Shown here piece by piece: positions 65-53,220 of a stretch of 64,000 bases of DNA. The translations under genes and the position numbers were made by a program. The notes under the pieces were generated by a model. It made no database searches. It worked only from the letters and a program-made list of their open reading frames with translations, and had not been told where the DNA came from. Source of the stretch: Clostridium cylindrosporum DSM 605 (lineage in GTDB: Bacteria; Bacillota; Clostridia; Clostridiales; Caloramatoraceae); contig NZ_LFVU01000002.1 in NCBI RefSeq assembly GCF_001047375.1, positions 62,001 through 126,000 of the forward strand, given 5' to 3'. How positions within the stretch are numbered: the first letter of the stretch is position 1; each line of letters begins with the position of its first letter.

Positions 65-1546
65 TTATAATGTAAATAATGTTTCATTTGTAGCTTCTAC
101 AGCTTCATTAGTTAACTCTCTCAAAAGAATTTGGGTGTCATTTATTTTGTTTAGTCCCTCTTCAATATTATCTGCTACATTTACTGTAATCATTCTAAAC
201 TGCTTTTTCTCTTTGTTCAAAATAAATTCTTCTATAAAATCTTCATCTAGTGGTGCCTTACCATCTGTTATAAAGATAATATCAGCATATTTATATTTTG
301 CTGTATTTATTAGTTTCATAGCCTCTGTTAAAGGTTCAACAAAGTTTGTTCCACTTCCAATAAATCCCGTTGCTAAATCATACATCTTTCTAGGCTCTAT
401 TTTTCTTTTATTAAATTCTATAACTTGTCCTACTTTATAGGAAAAAAGTATACCAACAAAATCCCTTTTTTGTTTGAATGCTATATCAAGTAATGCAATA
501 GCAACAGATTTTGACCATACTTCAAGTTCTCCTTCCATTGAACTTGAGGTATCTATACAGCATATAATAGGACCCTTTGATTTTATTCTATTATTTTTGT
601 ATTTATATGACAAAAGTTCTTTTTGATGATATTTTTTATAAAAACTTTTTTTAGTTATTTCATTTGCTAAAAGAAGCTTTTCCGAAGGAAGAACCTTATG
701 AATTTCGTCACCTAGCTTTACACCACAAATTTCTTGCCCTTCTTCTCTGGTTCTTCTTTTTTGAAGTTGACTTGCAGAGGCTTTAAATCTTCCTGCCATT
801 TCAGATATTTGCTTAACTTTTTTTAGTCCCTTAAGTTTTATAGCAACTTCTACTTTTTCATCGTAGGATGTTGGAGTCATTTTTCCGTCATTAAGTCCCC
901 ATGATTTAATAGTAGAGTTTATACCAATAAACTCTTTATATGCTGCAGATACACTTTTATACAATATATTAGAAGACAAAATACTTTTTTCTAGATCATT
1001 AATACTATTCTCTATAGAGGTTTCAAAACTAGTAATTTTCTCCTTCATAAGCTTTGATTCCTGTAGTTTTAACTCATCTTTACTACTTCTATATTCTAAA
1101 CATAGCTTTTTATAATCACTTAAAGCCCTTTTATAAGAAAATAATGCTTTTTCATATGATGCAACTTGACTTTTAAAATCATTATTATTATTTATAAACT
1201 TTATATAGTTTTGTATAAAATATTTTCCTATAAGTTCAGATCCTAAAAGTGAATTAAAGTAATTAACATTGCAGCTTTTTCTATATGAATCAAATTCATC
1301 TGTTTCAAATAGTTTAGTTATTAATCTATTGTTAAATTTATACTCTACATTAATTTCCTTCGATGACTTTATTTTAGGCATAGCTTTGAAAAGAGCTAAA
1401 TATATATCTTCACTTAATCTTTCATATGTAGGAAATACCTTTATATATTCCTCGATGCTTTTCTTTAACCTTTTGGAACCTTCGTGTATCTCCATATATA
1501 TATCAAGATCTAATTCAAAATATTCAATGGTATTTTTACTCTCCAC
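65..1546 (-). CDS. VWA-domain protein (ViaA-like partner of a MoxR ATPase)
   Basis: A 493-residue protein with a mostly helical, coiled-coil-prone N-terminal half (about residues 100-200) and a C-terminal von Willebrand factor A domain. The VWA part begins with the metal-site motif DTSSS at residue 332 (DxSxS, MIDAS), followed further on by a GSGTN loop and ITDGKAP. Such proteins pair with MoxR/RavA AAA+ ATPases as chaperone-like machines, as in E. coli RavA-ViaA; the client is unknown. The ATPase gene lies directly upstream with a 19-base gap, so the two form an operon. The start is GTG at 1546, seven bases after AAGGAG. The family call is solid; the cellular role is inferred from the pair. 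Confidence 0.85.
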   Translation of the reverse strand: MESKNTIEYFELDLDIYMEIHEGSKRLKKSIEEYIKVFPTYERLSEDIYLALFKAMPKIKSSKEINVEYKFNNRLITKLFETDEFDSYRKSCNVNYFNSLLGSELIGKYFIQNYIKFINNNNDFKSQVASYEKALFSYKRALSDYKKLCLEYRSSKDELKLQESKLMKEKITSFETSIENSINDLEKSILSSNILYKSVSAAYKEFIGINSTIKSWGLNDGKMTPTSYDEKVEVAIKLKGLKKVKQISEMAGRFKASASQLQKRRTREEGQEICGVKLGDEIHKVLPSEKLLLANEITKKSFYKKYHQKELLSYKYKNNRIKSKGPIICCIDTSSSMEGELEVWSKSVAIALLDIAFKQKRDFVGILFSYKVGQVIEFNKRKIEPRKMYDLATGFIGSGTNFVEPLTEAMKLINTAKYKYADIIFITDGKAPLDEDFIEEFILNKEKKQFRMITVNVADNIEEGLNKINDTQILLRELTNEAVEATNETLFTL

Positions 1547-1565
1547 CTTTATTCTCCTTATATTC

Positions 1566-2747
1566 TTACATCATTAAGTCGTCTTCATCAACCTGTTTTG
1601 ATATATATTCCAAGTAATCCTCAACTTCCTTTTTTAAACTTTCGAACTTTTTCAGAACTCCATCTTCCATAAGTTCTTTTTCCTTCATAATCCTTTTAAG
1701 CTTTTCATATAAATATTCTACAGAACTTTTTATTTCAACTATCATTCTTACGTCAGTTATTGTCTCTGATGCATCTACTATTTCTACATATCTTTTCTTA
1801 ATAGTATTATATTCTTTTTCATATGCAGATACAGATGATTCTTTTAGAACCTCTTCTATTTTTTCAATTTCTGATGGTTCATTCCATAAAACATCACGTA
1901 AACACTTAAAATCACTTGAATTTACAGACTCTCTATTATCAAGAAGGGCACTAACTCTTAGTACCTTTAAGCATTCATTTTGTCTTCTATCAGAAACTAC
2001 TATACCTTCTCTAAGTAATGCATTCATTAGTGCTATATATTCCTTTAAAATAGAATCATCTATCTCAATATTGTCCATTGCTTCTCTTAAAACATTAATA
2101 TCGTCTATTGTTACTGTTGTAGGTGAATCATTTTTTGAACCTTTACTTAAAAAGTTTTTAAGCATTATCATTTTATTTTGTACATCTCCAACATAATCAA
2201 CATACATTCTAAATATCATTCTGTCATAAAGGGCAAGAAGTGAATCCTCCTCTGGAAACTCATTTGATGCCGCAAATAATGATATAAGTGGAACATCCAC
2301 CGGCTTTCCATCGTTATAAAATAACTTTTCGTTTATAAGTGGTAGAAGAATATTAAGTGTAGGTTCATTACACTTAAATATTTCATCTAAAAATACTATC
2401 TCCGCTTCTGGAAGTTTATTTTTTGTAACTCTCACAAATTTATCTTGTTCCATTTCTCTAATACTAAATGGTCCAAGGATTTCAGATGGATCAGAGGTTC
2501 TATTTAATAGCCATGAAAAATATCTTCCGTTTACTATTCTCTTACATAATTCATCTGTAAGAGCACTTTTTGCTGTCCCAGGTGGTCCTATCAATAACAC
2601 TGATTGTCCTGTAATTAACGCCTTTATACTATTATCTATTACTTCATCTCTTTCTACAAATATACTTTTTAGTTCAGATGAAATACTTTGAAACTTACTA
2701 ATTGCATTTTGAACTTTCTGAGTATAGCTAATATTATTTTCTTCCAT
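1566..2747 (-). CDS. MoxR/RavA-family AAA+ ATPase
   Basis: A 393-residue AAA+ ATPase. Walker A is GPPGTAKS at residues 54-61 and Walker B is IVFLDE at 117-122, with the sensor-1 region around LFAASNEFPEE, as in the MoxR class. The C-terminal 100 residues are charged and helical and probably contact the partner. MoxR proteins use ATP hydrolysis to remodel or insert cofactors into client proteins, commonly together with a VWA protein, and that protein is encoded just downstream. A GGAGG site sits upstream of the ATG. RavA-like is the closest named relative, but the clostridial client is not known. Confidence 0.88.
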   Translation of the reverse strand: MEENNISYTQKVQNAISKFQSISSELKSIFVERDEVIDNSIKALITGQSVLLIGPPGTAKSALTDELCKRIVNGRYFSWLLNRTSDPSEILGPFSIREMEQDKFVRVTKNKLPEAEIVFLDEIFKCNEPTLNILLPLINEKLFYNDGKPVDVPLISLFAASNEFPEEDSLLALYDRMIFRMYVDYVGDVQNKMIMLKNFLSKGSKNDSPTTVTIDDINVLREAMDNIEIDDSILKEYIALMNALLREGIVVSDRRQNECLKVLRVSALLDNRESVNSSDFKCLRDVLWNEPSEIEKIEEVLKESSVSAYEKEYNTIKKRYVEIVDASETITDVRMIVEIKSSVEYLYEKLKRIMKEKELMEDGVLKKFESLKKEVEDYLEYISKQVDEDDLMM

Positions 2748-2856
2748 TGTTACTACCTCCTAAACATACAAATATATTATACATTATTTTTTATATTTTA
2801 AAAATTTACTACACCATATATTATAATTCCCAATAAGTAGTATAGCATAAAAATAA

Positions 2857-2889
2857 GACTACCATAGATTTTTTCTATACTAGGTAGCC
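2857..2889 (-). terminator. Terminator after homocysteine methyltransferase/MTHFR
   Basis: Inverted repeat GGCTACC...GGTAGTC (one G:U pair) with an extended TATAG/CTATG stem, followed on the minus strand by TTATTTTTATG. It lies 13 bases past the stop of the 2902-4680 gene. Confidence 0.7.
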
Positions 2890-2901
2890 TAATTTTAATA
2901 A

Positions 2902-4680
2902 TTAATTTATTTTGTCTATAACTCTCTTGACAACCTCTACTCTATTGAATGGAGTTATAAAATAGAACCCATCTACATATGGCTTTAGCTTATTTGCTAT
3001 GCTTGCTGCTATTTCAACACCAACTTCATATCCTTCTTCCTTTGTCATATCCTTATTGAATTTATTGATACATTCTTCAGGAATAAGAATACCTGGAACT
3101 TCATTATGAAGAAACATAGCATTTCTATAACTAACAAGAGGCATTATACCAGCTAATATTTTAGCGTCTTTTCTATCTTTTTTAAGATTTATAAGATAAT
3201 CTATAACCTCTTGATCAAATATAGGTTGAGTTAAGAAAAAGCTTGCTCCCTTTTCTATTTTCTTATCCATTCTTTTTATTTCAGCTTCCTTATTAGTTAC
3301 ATTTAAGTTAAGTGCTCCTCCGATTGCTATCTTGTCCATCTGGAAAACATCTTTATTCATTTGCTCTATTAATTCAATTAACCTAAATGAATTCAGATTA
3401 AATACACTTTTTGTACTTACTCTATCTTCTTCTGATATAGGATCCCCTGTAACTGCAAGAATATTTCTAGTACCTTCAATGTGTGATGCAAGTAGTCCTG
3501 ACCTAATAGCATTAATATTTTTATCTCTGCAACAAATGTGTGGAAGTACATCTATACCCACTTCTCTTTTTATTTTTGTTGCTACCATTAGTGAATCTAC
3601 TCTTGCAAGTGCTCTTGGTGAATCAGCTACGGTTATTAAGTCCACTCCAATTTCTTTGCAAAGCTTAGCTCCATCTATAATCCCACTTATGTCAACTCCA
3701 AATGGAGGATCTAGCTCAACCGCAATAACAAAATTCCCATCAGAAACTTTCTTAGAAAAGGCGCTAGTCTTTTCTATATTTACTTTCTTTTCTGCTATTT
3801 TCACACTTTCAACAGCAAAGGAACTAGGTCCTTCAAATTCTAGCTTTTCTTTTATTTTTGATATATGTTTTGGGGTCGTACCACAGCAACCACCTATTAT
3901 CTTTACACCAAGTGATTCTATATCAACCATCATATCCGCAAAATAATCTGGATTATTAACATATACGCTTCTTTCATTTATAATGTCAGGATACCCAGCG
4001 TTAGGTAGTGCAGATACTATACTACTGCACATATTTATACCCTTTAGTATTTTATATAAGTGCATCGGACCAAGTCCACAGTTAAATCCATAGGCATCTA
4101 CATCTAGAAGCTTTACACCACTTAGAACTGACTCGAGACTAAGACCTCTTCTTGTAAATCCATCCATTGTAAATGAAAACTGAGTTAGTATAAATGCATT
4201 ACTATTTCTTTGTCTTATATATGAAATTACCTTTTTTAAATAATCAAGGCTACTAAAAGTCTCAAATACAAATATATCCGCACCAACTTCTAAAAATGAA
4301 TCAACTATATATATATATTCATCATATAAATCAAATTCCTCATCATCAAATCTTGGCTCTGGTATAGGACCAATACTTGCTCCTACAAATACATCTTTAT
4401 TTTCAGCTACTTTTCTTGCAATTTTATAACCTTCCTGAATTATTTTTTTAACTTCGTTTTTTGATACTCCAAGTGTAATTGAATTAGCAGCAAAGGTATT
4501 TGTTCTAATTAATTTAGCTCCAGCATCTATATATTCTTTGTGTATTCCTTCTATAACTTCAGGGTTTTTTAAATTTGCAAACTCACATTTTGATACATTA
4601 TCCCCTGTAATTTCTGAATAGTATGTACCCATAGCCCCATCAGTTAAAAGTACATTTTCTAATAAATATTCCCTTACCAA
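2902..4680 (-). CDS. Bifunctional homocysteine S-methyltransferase / 5,10-methylenetetrahydrofolate reductase
   Basis: A 592-residue, two-domain enzyme. Residues 1 to about 290 are a homocysteine S-methyltransferase barrel with the zinc-binding cysteines C201 (FNCGLGP) and C265-C266 (IIGGCCGTTP). About residues 310-592 are a methylenetetrahydrofolate reductase domain, with SAKVLAGI-like and TQPIFD segments typical of MetF. It would reduce methylene-THF to methyl-THF and transfer a methyl group to homocysteine, giving methionine; B. subtilis YitJ has the same layout. The start is TTG at 4680 after GGGGGA with a 7-base spacing; no better ATG exists upstream. The 79-base gap upstream is too short for a SAM riboswitch. 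The gene lies downstream of aroF and may be cotranscribed with it. Confidence 0.93.
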   Translation of the reverse strand: MVREYLLENVLLTDGAMGTYYSEITGDNVSKCEFANLKNPEVIEGIHKEYIDAGAKLIRTNTFAANSITLGVSKNEVKKIIQEGYKIARKVAENKDVFVGASIGPIPEPRFDDEEFDLYDEYIYIVDSFLEVGADIFVFETFSSLDYLKKVISYIRQRNSNAFILTQFSFTMDGFTRRGLSLESVLSGVKLLDVDAYGFNCGLGPMHLYKILKGINMCSSIVSALPNAGYPDIINERSVYVNNPDYFADMMVDIESLGVKIIGGCCGTTPKHISKIKEKLEFEGPSSFAVESVKIAEKKVNIEKTSAFSKKVSDGNFVIAVELDPPFGVDISGIIDGAKLCKEIGVDLITVADSPRALARVDSLMVATKIKREVGIDVLPHICCRDKNINAIRSGLLASHIEGTRNILAVTGDPISEEDRVSTKSVFNLNSFRLIELIEQMNKDVFQMDKIAIGGALNLNVTNKEAEIKRMDKKIEKGASFFLTQPIFDQEVIDYLINLKKDRKDAKILAGIMPLVSYRNAMFLHNEVPGILIPEECINKFNKDMTKEEGYEVGVEIAASIANKLKPYVDGFYFITPFNRVEVVKRVIDKIN

Positions 4681-14270: not shown

Positions 14271-15125
14271 ATGGAAAAAGCGCAACCAAATAAACTAAAA
14301 TTACATGGATTTAATAATCTAACAAAAACTTTGAGCTTTAACATGTACGATATCTGCTACACAAAAACAGAAGTAGACAGAAATGCATACATTGAATATA
14401 TTGATGAGCAGTACAGTGCAGATAGGCTTACTAAGATTTTAACTACAGTTACTGAAATTATAGGCGCAAATGTTTTAAATATTGCAAAGCAAGACTATGA
14501 TCCACAGGGGGCTAGTGTAACCATTTTAATTTCAGAGGGACCTGTAGAGTCAGTACCAGGATCTCCTACAACAGCATCACCTGGTCCATTACCAGAAACA
14601 GTTTTAGCTCATTTAGATAAAAGCCATATAACTGTTCATACTTACCCAGAATACCATCCACATGAAGGTATTAGTACGTTTAGAGCGGATATTGACGTAT
14701 CAACTTGTGGTGAAATATCTCCACTAAAGGCGCTGAACTTTCTTATTCATTCCTTTGATGCGGATATAATGACTATTGATTATCGTGTTAGAGGATTTAC
14801 ACGTGATATCGGAGGTCAAAAGATTTATATCGATCACCCAATTGACTCTATACAGAACTTTATTCCAAAGAACATTAAACATCTGTACAATATGATAGAT
14901 GTTAATGTGTATCAGGAACACATATTCCATACAAAGTGTAAGTTAAAGAAGTTTGATTTAAATAACTATTTATTTGGTTACACCAAGGATGATCTTCATC
15001 CAGGTGAAGCGTCAATGATCGTGAAAAAAGTAAAGAAAGAAATGGACGAAATTTTCTATGGTACTAATGTAGAAGAAGCTATGTTTGAGCCGGAGGACTA
15101 TGATAATTATGAAAAAACATTGTAA
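14271..15125 (+). CDS. speD: S-adenosylmethionine decarboxylase proenzyme, E. coli type
   Basis: A 284-residue proenzyme that cleaves itself to a pyruvoyl enzyme and makes decarboxylated SAM, the aminopropyl donor for spermidine. The processing site is K117-S118 in [14 protein letters not shown], followed by [11 protein letters not shown] and the family's FTRDI segment; this is the large class 1A (E. coli) type and not the small Bacillus SpeH type. The ATG is the first possible start because an in-frame TGA lies 9 bases upstream. The AAAGGAG site is rather far (16 bases), which may lower initiation. Its 3' end overlaps the next gene, indicating coupling. Confidence 0.96.
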
Positions 15126-17433
15126 TACTCCTCTTCTATCTAGGGTTATAGAATATGCCCATAAAGATGTTACGTGTTTTGATGTTCCAGGTCATAAACG
15201 AGGAAATTACTTAGAAGAATTAAAGGAAGTTTGGGGAGAGATGACTCTGAAAATGGACGTTAATTCTTCTAAAACTGTTGACAATCTATCTAATCCAACA
15301 GGTGTAATTAAAGAAGCTGAAAGCCTAATTGCAGATGCCTTTCAATGTGATAACGCTTTCATGCTTGTTAATGGCTCAACATCAGGAGTTCAATATATGA
15401 TAATGGCTGCACTGGAACATGGAGATAAGGTTATACTTCCAAGAAATGTTCATAAGTCAGCAATAAACGCTCTAATATTATCAGGTGTTAGACCTATATT
15501 TATTGAGCCAGAAATTGATGTAGAATACGGAATAGTAAACGGAATTACACCGGAAGCTCTAAGTCATGCTTTAGATCTTCATAACGATGTTAAAGCAGTA
15601 CTTGTTATTAACCCTACTTATTTTGGAGCTACATCTAATCTTAAGGAGATTATAAGGATTTCTCACGATAGGGAAATCCCTGTTTTAGTTGATGAAGCCC
15701 ATGGTGCACACTTTAATTTTCACCCTGAGCTTCCTTCTTGTGGTGCTGCACTTGGAGCGGATTTAGTTACTGTAAGTATGCATAAAACAGGTGGTTCACT
15801 TACTCAATCCTCTGTTTTATTACACAATGAAGGATTTATTTCTAAAACAAAGGTACGTTCGACTATCAATCTCCTACAAACCACTTCTGCTTCTTATCTT
15901 TTAATGTCTTCTATAGATTTAGCTAGAAAAAAGCTTGTTTTAGAAGGCGAGGAAAGACTAGGCAAGCTTTTAGCATTAACTAAAAATGCAAAACGAGAAA
16001 TAAATAAAATTCCTGGACTTAAGTGTATTCAAAGAGATTCTTATATTAACTCTAAGGGAGTATATGATTATGATGAACTAAAAATTGTAATCAAAGTAAG
16101 TGATCTTGGTTTATCAGGCTTCTTTGTATATGATTTATTAGTTAACGAGTACTCCATTCAAATGGAACTTGCTGAGCCTAATGTAGTTCTAGCTATTGTT
16201 TCATTTGGGGACACTGAAGATACAATTAATAAGCTTGTTGAAGCCCTAATGGACGTAAGTAAACGCTTCTTTAATACTTTGCCTAAAAAGGACGTAGATG
16301 TTTTATCAAGTTTAAAGAACCCTAAGATTTTACTTACTCCAAGAGATGCCTACTATCATCCTAAAAAGCTTATGCATATAAAGGATACTGAAGGTCTTGT
16401 AGCAGGAGAGTCAATAATGGTTTACCCACCTGGTATTCCTTTAATAATCCCAGGAGAACAAATCACTAAAGAAATTATTGATCATTATCTATATCTTAAG
16501 GACGAAGGTACAATAACACTTAATGAAGATGATGACCCATATATGATACAAATATTAGATAAAAGTCAGGAGGACAATATGATAGATTTATGGTATACAG
16601 AGAACCACCAAGAGGACACTAAGTTTTCAATAAAGGTTAAGGAACATATTCACTCAGAAAAGTCTGAATTCCAACAAATCGACTTTTTTGAAAGCGATAC
16701 TTTTGGTAGATTCTTTACTCTAGATGGACTTATGATGGTAACAGAAAAGGATGAATTTATTTACCATGATATGATTACTCATATTCCTATGGCTGTAAAT
16801 CCAGCTATTAAAAATGTACTTATAATTGGTGGTGGAGATGGAGGAACTGCTAGAGAAGTTCTAAGATATTCATCTGTTGAAAAAGTAGATATGGTTGAAA
16901 TTGACGAAAGAGTTGTAAGACTTTGTGAAAAATACCTTCCTATAACTGCTGGAAAACTTACTGATGAAAGACTTACTCTTCACTTTGAAGATGGTCTTAA
17001 GTTTGTTCAAGATGCAAAGGATTCAACCTATGACCTTATACTAGTAGATTCAACTGATCCAATAGGGCCTGGTGAAGGACTTTTCACATATGAATTCTAT
17101 AATAACTGTAAAAGAGTTTTAACTGATGAGGGTATACTTATAAACCAACATGAGAGCCCATATTACTCAACTTATTCACATGAAATGAAAAGGGCTCATC
17201 TAAAGATCAAGGAAACTTTCCCAATAGCTAAGGTTTATCAATTCCATATGCCAACATATCCATCAGGACACTGGCTATTTGGATTTGCATCAAAGAAATT
17301 TGATCCAATTAAGGATTTAAAGGCTGATGTATGGAATTCACTAAACATTAAAACAAAATACTACAACACAGATCTTCATATCGGAGCATTTATGTTACCT
17401 AGCTATGTAAAGGATGAACTAAACAATGCTTAA
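15109..17433 (+). CDS. speA-speE: Arginine decarboxylase-spermidine synthase fusion
   Basis: One open frame of 774 residues from ATG 15109 (in-frame ATG 15100 and TTG 15085 are alternatives; GGAGG is at 15092-15096). Residues 1-490 are a PLP-dependent, aminotransferase-fold Orn/Lys/Arg decarboxylase of the Bacillus SpeA type, with DEAHGAH at 195-201 and the cofactor lysine K226 in MHKTGGS. Residues 491-774 are a complete spermidine synthase, with the dcSAM motif [10 protein letters not shown] from 574 and VDSTDPIGP further on. Between them is only a short acidic linker. An AGGAGG at 16568-16573 precedes an in-frame ATG at 16579, so a free SpeE can also be made. Arginine decarboxylase fits because agmatinase follows. 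The fusion is unusual; it could reflect a small indel. Confidence 0.88.
16568..16581 (+). promoter_or_regulatory. Internal ribosome binding site and ATG at the speA/speE junction
   Basis: A consensus AGGAGG (16568-16573) is followed after 5 bases by ATG (16579-16581), the expected N-terminus of a stand-alone SpeE (MIDLWYTEN). In the +1 frame the same bases read TGA TAG (16580-16585), the arrangement of an ordinary ATGA gene overlap. The site therefore looks like an ancestral gene boundary retained inside the fused frame. Confidence 0.8.
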
Positions 17434-18280
17434 TACTTATTCAACTAGTTCATTTATAGGATTCGATTCAAACTATGAAGATTCTACAGTAGTAATGTTT
17501 GGTGCTCCATTTGATGGAACTACAAGTTTTAGACCAGGAACAAGATTTGCTCCTGCGCAAATTAGAATTGATTCATACGGCCTTGAAACCTATTCTCCTT
17601 ATCTTGATCTTGATCTTGAAGATTTTAAGATTTCAGATATAGGTGATGTAGATATGCCATTTGGTAATACCGAAAAAGCCTTAGAAGCAATTAAAACTAC
17701 CTCAAAAGCGATTATTGGAGATGAGAAAAAACCACTTTTAATTGGAGGGGAACACCTAGTGTCCTTACCTGTAATTGAAAGTCTTTACAATGCTTATCCT
17801 GATCTTCATATAATACATTTTGATGCACACACTGATCTTCGTGAAGATTATATGGGAGAGAAGCTATCCCACGCAACGGTTATAAGACGTGCCCATGATA
17901 TTCTTGGTGATAATAGAATATACCAATTCGGCATAAGATCTGGAACTCGTGAAGAATTCAAATGGTCAAACGATCATACTATTATGAATAAATTCGACTT
18001 ATCTACACTAGAAAGTGCTGTTAAGAATCTTTCAGGTAAGCCTGTTTATTTAACAATTGACCTTGATGTTCTTGATCCATCTGTTTTTTCTGGTACAGGA
18101 ACTCCTGAACCAGGTGGAATAACAATGAAGGAACTATTAAATGGTATTAACATAATGAAAGATCTTAACTTAGTTGGTGCAGACGTGGTTGAACTTTCAC
18201 CAAGTTTTGATACTAGTGGAGTTTCAACAGCAGTAGCATGTAAAGTTATTAGAGAAGTATCTTTGATTCTTGCAAAGTAA
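17426..18280 (+). CDS. speB: Agmatinase
   Basis: A 284-residue ureohydrolase that converts agmatine to putrescine and urea, the step between arginine decarboxylase and spermidine synthase. The binuclear manganese motifs are present: GGEHLVS, HFDAHTDLRED and DLDVLDPS. Length is usual for the family. The ATG overlaps the speA-speE stop by 8 bases, so translation is probably coupled, and a terminator follows. With speD and speA-speE this completes arginine to agmatine to putrescine to spermidine in one transcript. A generic ureohydrolase such as formiminoglutamase is less likely given the context. Confidence 0.95.
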   Translation: MLNTYSTSSFIGFDSNYEDSTVVMFGAPFDGTTSFRPGTRFAPAQIRIDSYGLETYSPYLDLDLEDFKISDIGDVDMPFGNTEKALEAIKTTSKAIIGDEKKPLLIGGEHLVSLPVIESLYNAYPDLHIIHFDAHTDLREDYMGEKLSHATVIRRAHDILGDNRIYQFGIRSGTREEFKWSNDHTIMNKFDLSTLESAVKNLSGKPVYLTIDLDVLDPSVFSGTGTPEPGGITMKELLNGINIMKDLNLVGADVVELSPSFDTSGVSTAVACKVIREVSLILAK

Positions 18281-18284
18281 ATTA

Positions 18285-18317
18285 AAAAGGTATGAAAGAC
18301 TTACTTTCATACCTTTT
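18285..18317. terminator. Bidirectional terminator after speB
   Basis: A 14-base perfect stem AAAAGGTATGAAAG/CTTTCATACCTTTT around a 5-base loop, between the convergent speB and GGDEF/HD-GYP genes. Confidence 0.88.
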
Positions 18318-18319
18318 AT

Positions 18320-20017
18320 CTATATTCTGTGGAAATTATCCTTATTCTCTTTTATGACCTTAATAAAGACTTTTACTATGTCAGGGTCAAACTGTGTTCC
18401 ACTACACCTTATAAGCTCCTTAATCGCTTCCTCATAGGTTTTACTCTTATTATATGGTCTATCTGATGTCATAGCATCAAAACTATCTACAATCGTTAAT
18501 ACCCTTGCTAAAAACGGTATATCTTCACCCTTTAACTTTCCTGGATAACCTTCTCCATTATACTTTTCATGATGATGAAGTATTAAAGGTGTAACATTAT
18601 TAAGCGAATCTACACATTTAACTATATCCATACCATTTTCAGGGTGGTTTTGCACCATATTCCATTCCTCATCGTTTAAAGGCATCTTTTTATTTAAAAC
18701 TTCCTTAGGAATATTAATTTTACCTATATCATGCATATAAGCACCGTAAATCAGAGTTTTTTTATCTTCCTCAGAAAGATCTAGTTCATCTGCTAAAAGC
18801 CTACTATAGAGAACTACTCTTTCTGTATGAGCATAGGTGTACCTATCTTTAGAGTTAATAACACTTATTAATGTTTTAATTGATGCTATAACTTCAACAT
18901 GCCTTTCCTCTATATTACTTTTTAAATCATCTAATATAGATACATATCTTTCTACTCTGTTTTTCTTAAAGAACTTAGCTTTATATAGGGCATCATCTGC
19001 ACTTTTTAATAGTTCTATATCATTTGATGCTTTATCAGGATAAACAGATACACCCAGTGATACTGTAAGATTTCCATTTGGTTGGTTCTCTTGACCATCA
19101 AAATATGTATTTTCTATATCAATTCTTATTTTTTCTGCTATTTTTATTGCTTCTTCTTCTGTCTTTCTAGGTAGGATTATTCCAAATTCCTCCCCACCAT
19201 ATCTTGCCACTATATCATCATCAGTTACACTTCTTTTAAGGATTGCTCCTATAATCTTAAGTACTTCATCTCCCTTTTGATGACCATATAAATCGTTATA
19301 ATACTTAAAATAATCTATATCTATAAATATCAGTGAAACTGAACTCTTAACATCATCACTATACTTTACACAAGACCTTAAAAAGTCACGAAAATACCTA
19401 TGATTATATACCCCTGTTAATCCATCATAATTAACCATATTCTCTAATTCTTTTATATGTTCACCTTCAATTTTCACGTAAAAGCCTAGTGGCCATGAAG
19501 TTAATATAAATACACCAGATAATATAATATCATTTTCAAAATATGCATTAACAGGTGCACTTGGTGCAAATATTAAATCTATTAAGAGTATAATAGCAGA
19601 GGATGATATGGCAATAATCATTCCTTGTTTAATTCCTGATTGTATAGTAGTTGTAATAACAATAAACAAAAATAAAAATTTATATTGACTCTCATGTATA
19701 CCTGTAAAAAATATTACAGCTAATATTATCCCAATAAAGGTTATATTTTCTATATGTTGAATATAATTATTTTTCTTAATAACCTTTTCTCTTTTTATAG
19801 AAAACATCCATATAGTATAAATAAGCATTAGGGATATAACTACTATGCCTATATAAATAAGCCCATAATTAACATCTGTAGGACTCTCTATATACTCATA
19901 TTGTTTAAAAAAATATTTAAAAACTATTATTAGTACAAAAAGTAAAGTTGATAACTTTACAATTGATAATATATCATTTATTTGTTTTTCTCTATTATTT
20001 TTTATTATACTCATCAT
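18320..20017 (-). CDS. Membrane GGDEF and HD-GYP protein (c-di-GMP synthesis and breakdown)
   Basis: A 565-residue protein with about five to six membrane helices (residues 15-175), a diguanylate cyclase domain and a C-terminal HD-GYP phosphodiesterase domain. The cyclase signature is GGEEF at 274-278 with the upstream metal segment FIDIDYFK; the inhibitory RxxD is absent (TDDD at the expected place). The HD-GYP part has HDIGK at 429-433 and HHEKYNGEGYPG, both intact. One protein can thus in principle make and degrade c-di-GMP, with the membrane part as likely sensor. It lies 56 bases downstream of agrD, separated by a terminator, so it is probably its own transcript. Confidence 0.92.
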   Translation of the reverse strand: MMSIIKNNREKQINDILSIVKLSTLLFVLIIVFKYFFKQYEYIESPTDVNYGLIYIGIVVISLMLIYTIWMFSIKREKVIKKNNYIQHIENITFIGIILAVIFFTGIHESQYKFLFLFIVITTTIQSGIKQGMIIAISSSAIILLIDLIFAPSAPVNAYFENDIILSGVFILTSWPLGFYVKIEGEHIKELENMVNYDGLTGVYNHRYFRDFLRSCVKYSDDVKSSVSLIFIDIDYFKYYNDLYGHQKGDEVLKIIGAILKRSVTDDDIVARYGGEEFGIILPRKTEEEAIKIAEKIRIDIENTYFDGQENQPNGNLTVSLGVSVYPDKASNDIELLKSADDALYKAKFFKKNRVERYVSILDDLKSNIEERHVEVIASIKTLISVINSKDRYTYAHTERVVLYSRLLADELDLSEEDKKTLIYGAYMHDIGKINIPKEVLNKKMPLNDEEWNMVQNHPENGMDIVKCVDSLNNVTPLILHHHEKYNGEGYPGKLKGEDIPFLARVLTIVDSFDAMTSDRPYNKSKTYEEAIKELIRCSGTQFDPDIVKVFIKVIKENKDNFHRI

Positions 20018-20032
20018 TTGTCCTCATAACTA

Positions 20033-20076
20033 AAAAAATAATAAAAGATCGGATAACCGATCCTTATTATTTTTTA
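20033..20076 (-). terminator. Terminator of the agr-type operon
   Basis: GATCGG/CCGATC core stem with an outer AATAATA(A/G) stem, then TTTTTTTAG on the minus strand. It overlaps the last bases of agrD. Confidence 0.85.
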
Positions 20077-20208
20077 GTTTTCTTCTAAGCATTTTGGCTC
20101 CTCTGGTTGATAGGAATACCATAAACATGCTGATGTTGCTACAACTGATGCTGCAACTGTTGCTATAGCAGCAACCGCCATTAATACTTTGTTACCTAAC
20201 TTTTTCAT
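20074..20208 (-). CDS. agrD: AgrD-type cyclic lactone autoinducer precursor
   Basis: A 44-residue peptide with a textbook AAGGAGG before its ATG. The N-terminus is an amphipathic, hydrophobic leader (MKKLGNKVLMAVAAI, up to about residue 23). The core is TSACLWYS around C28, and the C-terminal tail begins YQPEEPK, the charged recognition tail of clostridial AgrD peptides. By analogy with C. perfringens, AgrB would cut after the core and form a thiolactone from C28, giving a five-residue CLWYS ring or a slightly larger one. A second cysteine (C40) sits in the discarded tail. agrB is directly upstream, separated by 34 bases. Confidence 0.92.
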   Translation of the reverse strand: MKKLGNKVLMAVAAIATVAASVVATSACLWYSYQPEEPKCLEEN

Positions 20209-20242
20209 TTTAGTTCCTCCTTAAAAGTATATTTAAAAGATT

Positions 20243-20863
20243 CTATTTTTTTAATATAAAATGTGATGCATTAGTTAGTGTAAATGCTTGCCAAGCTATT
20301 CCTATGTACATACATATAGCATATATTAAGTACTTATTATTTAAGGTAACTTTATAGCTTAGAATTAAACATATAACAATAACTAAATATACACTTAGTA
20401 TAAGTATAGAACCTTTCTTTAGCTTTTTTCTTTTATCCTGATTTCTTATTGGCTTTGCTACACTGTCAACAGGTGCAAACATATAAATCAAATAATATGT
20501 ACCAATAAAAATAATAATTCCAATTAAACTAACTATATAAATATTAAAATCATATATTAACTTTGTTATTAAAAATGTAGGTAATACACAAACTATTGTA
20601 CCAATAACAATACATTTACCTGGAGTATTTGCATGTGCTCCTCCAGAGTATTTTCTAAGTATAGCTGTTGCAAATGATACAATTAAAGATTCAAGTAAAA
20701 CCCCTAAAAACAGTCCAAAGACTGATGTTATAACTATAGAAAGTGTAATTTGAAGTATTGCAAATATACCATAAACTATAACATCCCTTTTATCCCCATC
20801 AAAGTTTAATTCCTTTGAAATATTATTTCCTAATTTATTAGCTACTTTATCTACCTTAAACAT
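20243..20863 (-). CDS. agrB: AgrB-type membrane endopeptidase
   Basis: A 206-residue integral membrane cysteine protease that trims the AgrD C-terminus and takes part in thiolactone formation. The catalytic pair H77 and C84 is visible in GGAHANTPGKC, at the same numbering as in S. aureus AgrB. Four to six membrane helices follow. The gene overlaps its upstream neighbour by 8 bases and precedes agrD by 34 bases. No agrC or agrA lies in this window, so the receptor is elsewhere or is a different two-component system, as discussed for C. perfringens VirSR. The ribosome site is somewhat distant from the ATG, which fits translational coupling. Confidence 0.95.
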   Translation of the reverse strand: MFKVDKVANKLGNNISKELNFDGDKRDVIVYGIFAILQITLSIVITSVFGLFLGVLLESLIVSFATAILRKYSGGAHANTPGKCIVIGTIVCVLPTFLITKLIYDFNIYIVSLIGIIIFIGTYYLIYMFAPVDSVAKPIRNQDKRKKLKKGSILILSVYLVIVICLILSYKVTLNNKYLIYAICMYIGIAWQAFTLTNASHFILKK

Positions 20864-21323
20864 TTTTCAACTGTCTTCTCCTTTTTAATAAAAAGTAACA
20901 AATCAATACTACTATCCATATAACCAATAATGAAGGTATGCCATAAAATATTTTTTGTATTGGATTAGCAAAAACTTCACTTATATTCATATCTAAAATT
21001 TTTTCTATAATAAATACATTTAACCCTTCACATAAAAGCTGAATTATTAATATTAATATACTTGCCTTAATACAACTTATAATATCTATTTTATTTATAA
21101 TAGAACTTGTCACTATAATAGCTATTAATGATAAAACAGTATGTACTCCATAATTAATTGGAAGACTTCTAATTAACAAAAATGAAATTGCTACTACAAA
21201 CCCTGAAATCATAAATCTAGATACCTTTACCTTAAATTTTGAGAATGTTAGTATAGCAAATACAAATAAAAAGGCTTCAGGTATAGCTCTAAATAAAAAT
21301 TCTATAAACGGTAACTCTAACAC
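20856..21323 (-). CDS. Membrane protein resembling the AgrC sensor domain without a kinase
   Basis: A 155-residue protein with five or six membrane helices and a short basic end (KRRRQLKNV). The first 130 residues resemble, in my judgement, the N-terminal membrane sensor of clostridial AgrC-like GHKL kinases (IPEAFLF near residue 14, RSLPINYGVHTVLS near 52). No histidine box or ATP-binding domain follows, because the frame ends and agrB begins. The start is GTG at 21323, eight bases after AAGGAG. It sits inside the agr operon between a DUF5317 gene and agrB. It may bind or chaperone the peptide, but this is inference and no family search was possible. Confidence 0.75.
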   Translation of the reverse strand: MLELPFIEFLFRAIPEAFLFVFAILTFSKFKVKVSRFMISGFVVAISFLLIRSLPINYGVHTVLSLIAIIVTSSIINKIDIISCIKASILILIIQLLCEGLNVFIIEKILDMNISEVFANPIQKIFYGIPSLLVIWIVVLICYFLLKRRRQLKNV

Positions 21324-21342
21324 TTGTATTTCTCCTTTTAAA

Positions 21343-21894
21343 CTATAATTTAATTATTCTACTTTCATTTATTTTTTTAATAGCAGCATAAATAATAATA
21401 AACACAAAAACTCTAATAAATATATCTCCAATACTCAAAATACTATACCCTAAATCAAATATATCTGTTAAGCAAATATATTTTACAGATGAACTTCCCA
21501 ACACGTGGATATCATTCACCTTAGAAAATGAATCTACTTTAGCATATCCTGTTAAATAAGATAATGCAGGAAAAACAGGCATCATTCCTGAATTAGACTT
21601 TATAGCAATATCATTTAAAAGTCCTCCAAGCACTATAAAAGCTGAACCTATTATAGCCTTTATATATATTTCATGCTTAAATATAATAAATAGATATGTA
21701 CAAAGATACGTTGTCTTTAAAATTCCAGAATATTGTACTAAAAAATAATTACCTAGAAATATATTAATCTGTGCAATTATAATTATAAGTTCCATAAAAA
21801 TTACGGGATAAAACTCCCACGAATTAAACACAGGTTTTATATTATATCCCTTTACTTTTGCAAAAATCATAGCTAAGATAACAGTTTCAATCAT
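21343..21894 (-). CDS. DUF5317 family membrane protein
   Basis: A 183-residue membrane protein with about five helices. It carries the marks of DUF5317: a central NSGMMPVFP segment and a late SIGDIFIRVFVF segment before the last helix. Its function is unknown. It is the first gene of the four-gene agr-type operon, and the next gene begins 19 bases after its stop; GAGAGGA precedes the ATG. C. perfringens agrBD is likewise preceded by two small membrane genes as I recall, which suggests a conserved accessory role in peptide signalling. Confidence 0.78.
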   Translation of the reverse strand: MIETVILAMIFAKVKGYNIKPVFNSWEFYPVIFMELIIIIAQINIFLGNYFLVQYSGILKTTYLCTYLFIIFKHEIYIKAIIGSAFIVLGGLLNDIAIKSNSGMMPVFPALSYLTGYAKVDSFSKVNDIHVLGSSSVKYICLTDIFDLGYSILSIGDIFIRVFVFIIIYAAIKKINESRIIKL

Positions 21895-22093
21895 AGTATT
21901 CCTCTCTCAATTTGCACAAACATTATTTAAATTTTTAGAACAATTAAAAATCTATGGCTTAATCCCTACTAATTATTATACTACTTTTAATCTACTTTTC
22001 CATATTTTTTCTATTTTTTTATATTAATTTAACAAAAATTCATCATTTTTTTACTTTTTTATACATTTATATATATATTTATTCAAAAATTAT

Positions 22094-22127
22094 AAAACAC
22101 CTAGAAAAAACTTTCTCTAGGTGTTTT
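22094..22127 (-). terminator. Terminator after the MATE gene
   Basis: A 12-base perfect stem AAAACACCTAGA/TCTAGGTGTTTT with a T-rich end on the minus strand, 31 bases beyond the MATE stop. The rest of the 21895-22157 gap shows only AT-rich sequence upstream of the agr operon. Confidence 0.85.
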
Positions 22128-22157
22128 ATCGTCTTTATAGAAAAATCATTAAAGTTA

Positions 22158-31140: not shown

Positions 31141-31373
31141 AAATAAATAAAAACCGCGTAAATCATTCCTATTGGAGCGATTTACGCGGTACCATCCAAA
31201 TTTTCTCTTAATTAAAATAACGGTAATAACCGGCGAAGCTTACTTAATTTCACCCCGCTGCTCATGAGCAAGTTCAAAAGTGATAGTTTGAGGACTCTCA
31301 CCATACGTCCATCTCTCTTTAAAACCTCTTTCTTTCTACTACTCTCAATCAATGCTTTAATTCAGTATTGTTT
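31141..31373 (-). promoter_or_regulatory. T-box riboswitch leader of leuA
   Basis: A leader of about 230 bases on the minus strand. The T-box core TGGTACCGCG is at 31185-31194. Its terminator is a 12-base stem (31153-31164 with 31179-31190) followed by TTTTTATTTATTTT; the same T-box strand can pair in the alternative antiterminator. The bases GAACTTGCTC at the presumed specifier loop offer CTT (31270-31272) as a leucine specifier codon, in agreement with the gene; this placement was not folded. When leucyl-tRNA is uncharged, readthrough into leuA is expected. Confidence 0.92.
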
Positions 31374-43576: not shown

Positions 43577-43647
43577 AAATGTATGCACATATAAAATACA
43601 CTAAACATATATGAATTTAACATATGTTAATGAATCCTATAAATTCA

Positions 43648-43735
43648 AGTAGCTTTCCTACGCTGGTATTATCCAGATCAGGTACAAGGGTTGATAAATT
43701 ATCTCTCAGCCATTTTGGCACCCCTAGCAAATTAT
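43648..43735 (-). promoter_or_regulatory. TPP riboswitch (THI element) of the thiD-thiM-thiE operon
   Basis: On the minus strand: GGGGTGCC...GGCTGAGA at the 5' side, then ACCCTTGTACCTGATCTGGATAATACCAGCGTAGG, of which CTGATCTGGATAAT and CCAGCGTAGG are hallmarks of the TPP aptamer. P1 and the TPP-binding helices can be drawn. It controls transcription through the hairpin at 43546-43576. Confidence 0.96.
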
Positions 43736-45260: not shown

Positions 45261-45283
45261 GCATTATTAAAATTACAAACACA

Positions 45284-45449
45284 AAGATAGCTCTCCACAA
45301 TACTATTGTGACAGTCTTGCACATATTATGTACAAAACCAGCATATTCCCTTAAAGCGTTAGAAATATACTTCGGCAATAATCCCTTTCATATTGAGTCA
45401 TCGTGCTTACCTTATCAATACTACTCTTAATTACTGCTACCTCTATCTT
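45284..45449 (-). promoter_or_regulatory. Lysine riboswitch (L-box)
   Basis: On the minus strand the conserved blocks occur in the right order: AAGATAGAGGT at the 5' end, AAGAGTA, GAAAGGG, TTGCCGAAG, TGCTGG, GACTGTCA and GGAGAGCTATCTT at the 3' end. P1 is AAGATAG with CTATCTT (45443-45449 with 45284-45290). A terminator follows at 45235-45260. Lysine binding should cause termination before the APC transporter gene. Confidence 0.95.
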
Positions 45450-45478
45450 ACCTAGATATTTAAAATTATTTCTATGTA

Positions 45479-53056: not shown

Positions 53057-53115
53057 AAATCACAAAATAAACAATTTAGATAGTATATCTATATTGCATT
53101 ATTAATATTAAGTAA

Positions 53116-53203
53116 TCTGCTTCCCTACGCTGGTATTATCCATATCAGGTTATAAGAGTTAGGATACATATCCCTCTCAGCCTTACGGCACCTCTAGCAT
53201 TTC
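53116..53203 (-). promoter_or_regulatory. TPP riboswitch (THI element) of the thiS operon
   Basis: Minus strand: AGAGGTGCC...GGCTGAGA, then ACCTGATATGGATAATACC and AGCGTAGGGAAGC, the TPP aptamer signature. This second copy differs from the first at 43.65 kb mainly in the variable arms. It controls the thiazole operon by the terminator at 53030-53056. Confidence 0.96.
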
Positions 53204-53220
53204 TTACCATTACTAAATTA

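Follow-up and report, generated by a model that had tools for sequence, protein, structure and literature searches.

An agrBD cluster of Clostridium cylindrosporum with a predicted c-di-GMP enzyme as candidate receptor of the signal peptide

The agr loci of many clostridia have agrBD but neither agrC nor agrA, which raises the question of how these agrBD-only organisms read the signal. The agrBD locus of C. cylindrosporum, found in a 64-kb window (the whole stretch of DNA analyzed), prompts the same one: what reads its peptide? Next to agrB and agrD we found neither an AgrC GHKL kinase nor an AgrA LytTR regulator; their neighbors instead code for a DUF5317 protein, a 155-residue membrane protein, here termed X155, and a protein combining GGDEF and HD-GYP domains (Table 1). 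A complete agrBDCA system at the locus is hence rejected. Searches of the genome, which is 96% complete, recovered no AgrA-like LytTR regulator, the single LytTR protein being at 155 aa too short for an AgrA, and no convincing AgrC: the GHKL matches are weak and fall in long kinase frames of other kinds, and the best PF14501 match reaches 34 bits in a 707-aa frame. At this level of completeness, it is possible that an AgrC or AgrA was missed.

Table 1. Features of the agrBD cluster, with positions in the window.
Feature	Position	Strand	Evidence
Terminator of upstream gene, bounding the cluster	22092..22129	-	
DUF5317 membrane protein, first gene of the cluster	21343..21894	-	PF17248, E 4.8e-19
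X155, 155-aa membrane protein, GTG start	20856..21323	-	Overlaps agrB by 8 bases
agrB, membrane protease/cyclase	20243..20863	-	PF04647, E 9.5e-43; H77 and C84 invariant
agrD, 44-aa signal precursor	20074..20208	-	TIGR04223, 44.7 bits; AAGGAGG and ATG
Predicted ring CLWYS (C28-S32)	20113..20127	-	Conserved Cys and Y/H/F-Q, 105 relatives
Tail Cys40 codon, common family state	20089..20091	-	Cys in 71/105 relatives
Terminator-like hairpin between agrD and the sensor gene	20044..20065	-	
Sensor protein, 6-TM, GGDEF and HD-GYP, 565 aa	18320..20017	-	PF00990, E 6e-45; PF13487, E 2e-41
Six-TM sensor domain, residues 1-190, candidate peptide receptor	19448..20017	-	
GGDEF domain, GGEEF motif intact	18959..19432	-	
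HD-GYP domain, HDIGK and GYP motifs intact	18377..18874	-	
Two-way terminator closing the cluster, downstream end	18285..18317	.	

The short agrD frame encodes MKKLGNKVLMAVAAIATVAASVVATSACLWYSYQPEEPKCLEEN, with an AAGGAGG 7 bases 5' of its ATG. It is the sole match in the genome to the AgrD family model TIGR04223 (E 1e-11; its bit score compares with a curated cut-off of 19) and displays the traits of the family, namely an amphipathic leader, a cysteine-bearing core and an acidic tail with the conserved proline. Since it lies 34 bases 3' of an agrB, in which the catalytic His77 and Cys84 are conserved without exception across 20 relatives, the frame is real, far beyond chance. Judged by its sequence, it is a true AgrD, the precursor of an ordinary bacterial cell-to-cell signal. 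A preliminary description of the locus had arrived at this identity from the order of leader, core and charged tail, and had placed C28, Y33 and C40 correctly; it also took the sequence to be new, which holds as well, as the core CLWYS is absent from the other 104 distinct AgrDs that we collected. Thus, we are dealing with an ordinary member of a known family that has a new ring sequence; its end, LEEN, is a little unusual, with most relatives having LRE or LRD. The five-residue ring of that description likewise finds support, as opposed to its six-residue alternative and its odd tail cysteine; the conserved neighbors, and with them the candidate receptor, had escaped it.

The size of the ring can be approached through comparison. 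Our AgrD set was drawn from loci in two genome collections by a pattern (Cys or Ser at the start of the core, then four residues and an aromatic-type residue followed by Gln) and comprises 105 sequences distinct in their last 32 residues. The core residue is Cys in all 105, even as the pattern would admit Ser, and the four variable ring positions are followed by Tyr (98), His (6) or Phe (1), with Gln next. In between, the cores are highly variable (97 distinct ones), the third ring position usually being Trp (64) or Phe (24), and the leader ends in TSA, ASA or SSA in 93 sequences. It is this combination of an invariant Cys, four variable residues and Y/H/F-Q that fixes the predicted ring as C28-S32. 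In C. thermocellum, LC-MS/MS of the AgrD peptide identified a five-residue ring without a tail, cleaved before the equivalent Tyr (PMC5322536), and a synthetic five-residue ring elicits a response in C. perfringens (PMC7492741). A five-residue thiolactone, CLWYS, is hence a well-supported prediction for C. cylindrosporum, its size being extrapolated from these relatives; tail-less thiolactone rings of this kind are known to rearrange (S-to-N) to a plain cyclic peptide of equal mass (PMC11297923). The calculated [M+H]+ is 653.275 for the CLWYS ring in either form and 816.339 for the six-residue ring.

The preliminary description had also entertained cleavage after Y33, giving the six-residue ring CLWYSY, and had regarded the second cysteine, C40, as an unusual feature that might affect ring formation. 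Beyond the mere presence of Y33 and C40, nothing speaks for either a six-residue signal or a ring altered by Cys40, and we consider this alternative very improbable. The longer ring is disfavored because it would draw the conserved first residue of the tail into the signal, and we reject it on the conservation of Y/H/F-Q throughout the set; the cut before Tyr in the C. thermocellum peptide also stands against it. As to the cysteine, 71 of the 105 AgrDs share it at position 40, 20 have Ser there, 8 have Ala and the remaining 6 have other residues, such that this position appears to tolerate small residues with Cys as the commonest. Being the majority state, Cys40 is unlikely to have any special effect on the ring, and a special role for it is rejected. 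It may have looked odd from comparison with C. perfringens alone: that species falls in the Ser minority, since the complement of its published agrD reverse primer translates as PKSLRDE.

Turning to the neighbors, we fetched 80 named loci by their AgrB and clustered the adjoining ORFs. The families recovered are agrB (80), the sensor protein (77), X155 (74) and DUF5317 (46), and the next most frequent one occurs at only 7 loci; hence, the agr block is a discrete unit, and general conservation of gene order as the cause of the cluster is rejected. The order conserved in the named genomes is (DUF5317)-X155-agrB-agrD-hairpin-sensor protein: X155, present in 74-75 of the 80 relatives, is mostly immediately 5' of agrB, the sensor gene directly follows agrD in 75 loci, and DUF5317 is found in 46-48. 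The block extends beyond Clostridium to Fonticella, Tepidibacter, Anaerosolibacter, Marinisporobacter and others; within the genus, C. homopropionicum (ring CLWFS, locus L135) and C. tunisiense (L103) are among those that share it. The AgrB of the window is 50-52% identical to those of Clostridiaceae as against 37-38% to that of Fonticella from its own family, in which only 3 of 17 genomes have an AgrD; the cluster (18320-21894) may thus stem from a donor among the Clostridiaceae, the trees being weakly supported. Two oddities among the loci deserve mention. A contig of Lutibacter sp. B2 (L129), labeled Bacteroidota, has the clostridial cluster, and the two trees agree in placing it with Marinisporobacter; this record is probably mislabeled or contaminated. 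Another locus (L152) has two agrD-like ORFs (4073 and 5634), one of them before agrB.

The hairpin between agrD and the sensor gene is part of this conserved arrangement. Of the 61 relatives in which the spacer is short, 49 have a similar one, with 2.0 expected from shuffles, and among sequences chosen for having the hairpin its stem stays paired even as both of its strands change. A hairpin sequence of this kind is also contained in the C. perfringens primer agrR1, just after agrD. The hairpin may cap the agr transcript or let a fraction pass, and it probably limits transcription of the sensor gene; because it divides the two, agrD may be transcribed separately from the sensor gene.

The sensor protein has the motifs of a bifunctional GGDEF/HD-GYP enzyme intact (RYGGEEF, HDIGK and EGYP), and is thus predicted both to make c-di-GMP, via its GGDEF domain, and to break it, via its HD-GYP domain. 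Its GGDEF domain seemingly lacks the Arg of the RxxD inhibitory site common in relatives, having a Thr at residue 265. Across the 75 sensors adjacent to agrD, the output is a GGDEF domain in 62, of which 58 also have HD-GYP within that frame, and a histidine kinase in 13; the eight kinase-type sensors that were checked by Pfam are all PAS + HisKA + HATPase. The six-TM domain of the sensor protein in the window shows 43-56% identity to that of most of these agr-linked PAS-HisKA kinases (some are lower), and the sensor-domain tree has one change between the GGDEF and kinase forms, with modest support (83). In these comparisons, output domains are seen to have been swapped naturally at a single locus. 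As the sensor is the part kept at the locus while the outputs change, the six-TM domain is likely to be the peptide receptor, with this exchange as our main argument. The structural model of the domain (pLDDT 86) finds its best matches in six-TM domains of nucleotide cyclases, with Z-scores up to 12.5 for adenylyl cyclases and of 10.6 for the diguanylate cyclase ImcA, values within the range that helical bundles reach through arrangement alone.

X155 accompanies this sensor closely. Among 218 genomes of the order, 113 have both X155 and the sensor domain, 2 have X155 alone, 4 the sensor alone and 99 neither; X155 lies within 4 kb of 130 of the 150 listed sensor genes. Further, its evolutionary distances correlate with those of AgrB (partial r 0.47) and the sensor (0.43) but not with those of the HD-GYP part (-0.06), where the points are not independent and saturation may affect fast-evolving membrane proteins alike. 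X155 has no match above cut-off in Pfam or NCBIfam; it is predicted, at high confidence, to be a five-helix membrane protein, the AlphaFold model (pLDDT 93.8) having five long helices and no fold match in the PDB. The idea that it is a broken AgrC sensor is not supported, given its short frames, the lack of kinase fusions and this lack of a PDB match: the matches listed in the 218 genomes are in frames of about 150-200 aa, with one 367-aa exception, and show no sign of kinase fusion. In three loci (L113, minus strand, about 1227-3568; L144; L180), X155 lies beside a kinase-type sensor gene away from agrB-agrD, which suggests that they are a pair in their own right. In a close relative of C. 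perfringens (G214), whose AgrD core CIWFT is one reported in some C. perfringens isolates, we recovered the full order DUF5317-X155-agrB-agrD-GGDEF/HD-GYP. Published primers for CPE1563 and CPE1562 map to DUF5317 and X155 of this locus (L235), some with several mismatches and the X155 primer with six; by this mapping, X155 is probably CPE1562 of the C. perfringens operon. The portions of the literature covered by our search held no described function for X155.

The genome also has candidate readers of the sensor's product. It has three c-di-GMP-I riboswitches; of the genes just after them, as judged by eye, one codes for a predicted secreted protein, one for a chemoreceptor-like protein and one for a predicted exported protein, and c-di-GMP is thus probably in use in C. 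cylindrosporum. Within the window, no c-di-GMP riboswitch reached the gathering score; other RNA elements there, all on the minus strand, are a lysine riboswitch (45280-45453), a T-box leader (31170-31361) and two TPP riboswitches (53105-53205 and 43638-43735). Elsewhere in the window, a 782-aa ORF (15085-17433, plus strand) is a fusion of an Orn/Lys/Arg decarboxylase with a spermidine synthase and is directly followed by an arginase/agmatinase-family gene (17426-18280), constituting a fused polyamine pathway.

We favor, with somewhat better than even confidence, the view that this is a quorum-sensing system of the agr type, with a membrane c-di-GMP enzyme, along with X155, as the reader of its peptide. 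To elaborate, AgrB would cut AgrD before Y33 and close the five-residue thiolactone CLWYS, with the tail YQPEEPKCLEEN acting as a recognition handle for AgrB and its cysteine having no special role. Removal of the leader near A27/C28 would then leave a ring with little or no exocyclic tail. Outside the cell, the sensor protein whose gene follows agrD would respond to this ring, probably in concert with X155, and the six-TM domain would control GGDEF and HD-GYP such that cell density becomes a c-di-GMP level read by the riboswitches; the hairpin after agrD would limit transcription of the sensor gene. From the genes and their comparison, we infer the binding of the peptide by the sensor, the role of X155 and the direction in which c-di-GMP would change. 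That a quorum receptor can work when coupled to a nucleotide cyclase has a precedent by analogy in Vibrio, where a six-TM quorum-sensing receptor drives an adenylate cyclase in a laboratory fusion (PMC4821796). More tentatively, and at a little less than even confidence, we propose a widespread clostridial class of agr systems in which X155 and the six-TM receptor would pass a cyclic peptide to a GGDEF/HD-GYP enzyme, allowing one-step control of c-di-GMP without a kinase or response regulator, with recombination having placed the same receptor on a histidine kinase in certain lineages.

Systems of this kind can have a receptor located elsewhere, since the signal of C. perfringens acts through the kinase VirS (PMC7492741). 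By extension, the AgrD peptide of C. cylindrosporum might be sensed by a distant VirS-like histidine kinase, with the GGDEF/HD-GYP gene merely co-regulated or a downstream target of quorum sensing. The hairpin setting the sensor gene apart from agrD is consistent with this, as is the presence in the genome of several long kinase frames that match GHKL weakly. However, the same sensor domain follows agrD on a PAS-HisKA kinase at 13 loci, sensor and X155 are nearly always co-inherited, and the genome, at its 96% completeness, yielded no VirR/AgrA-type regulator, its sole LytTR protein being the short one noted above; we therefore regard a distant kinase as unlikely, albeit a serious contender. 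A different division of labor would have X155 alone as the peptide receptor, or as a partner handling the signal (by import, export or modification), with the six-TM domain of the sensor only listening to X155. After the sensor protein, X155 is the best-conserved partner of agrB, and its distances track both AgrB and the sensor. Moreover, in C. perfringens the two upstream genes are co-transcribed with agrBD and the fragment holding them was needed for complementation, an agrB mutant being complemented by the four-gene fragment and not by agrB with agrD (PMC2706048). This result may, however, stem from a promoter missing in the shorter clone, and X155 has neither a structural nor a family match to back such a role, which we deem improbable.

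If the reading in which the sensor protein receives the peptide is true, peptide quorum sensing and c-di-GMP, two major signaling systems, are joined in one protein, and a portable six-TM sensor, borne by either a kinase or a c-di-GMP enzyme, is a direct candidate for the way in which agrBD-only clostridia read their signals. The cluster appears to be new among agr systems in having a c-di-GMP enzyme in the receptor's place: the titles and abstracts that we searched hold no description of agrBD or agrD beside a diguanylate cyclase, GGDEF or HD-GYP gene, and an earlier mention in the literature is possible.

The closest known counterpart is the agr-like locus CPE1563-CPE1562-agrB-agrD of C. perfringens (PMC2706048), which likewise has two genes 5' of agrBD in one operon. 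Its ring, CLWFT or CIWFT, is close to CLWYS, and neither organism has agrCA at the locus; the two differ in that C. perfringens has a tail Ser and a receptor reported as VirS, whereas C. cylindrosporum has a tail Cys and a candidate GGDEF/HD-GYP sensor. The GGDEF/HD-GYP gene after agrD, present in the relative's locus L235, is not discussed in those parts of the C. perfringens agr literature that our search covered. With the agrBDCA system of Staphylococcus aureus, the present one shares AgrB, AgrD and a predicted thiolactone signal; AgrC and AgrA were not found here, and the place of the receptor is taken by a c-di-GMP enzyme as its candidate. C. autoethanogenum (PMC8748961) resembles our cluster and its kinase version in having agrBD, an agr-linked histidine kinase, no agrA, a five-membered ring and a Pro-x-x-Pro tail, and differs in the order agrD1-agrC1-agrB1 and in its kinase being named AgrC1; this kinase is presumably related to the kinase version recovered here (e.g., L132 and L133). 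Finally, the Vibrio chimera (PMC4821796) is like the sensor protein in placing a six-TM quorum receptor on a nucleotide cyclase; however, it was made in the laboratory and answers to CAI-1, whereas the combination in C. cylindrosporum is natural and its predicted signal is a peptide.
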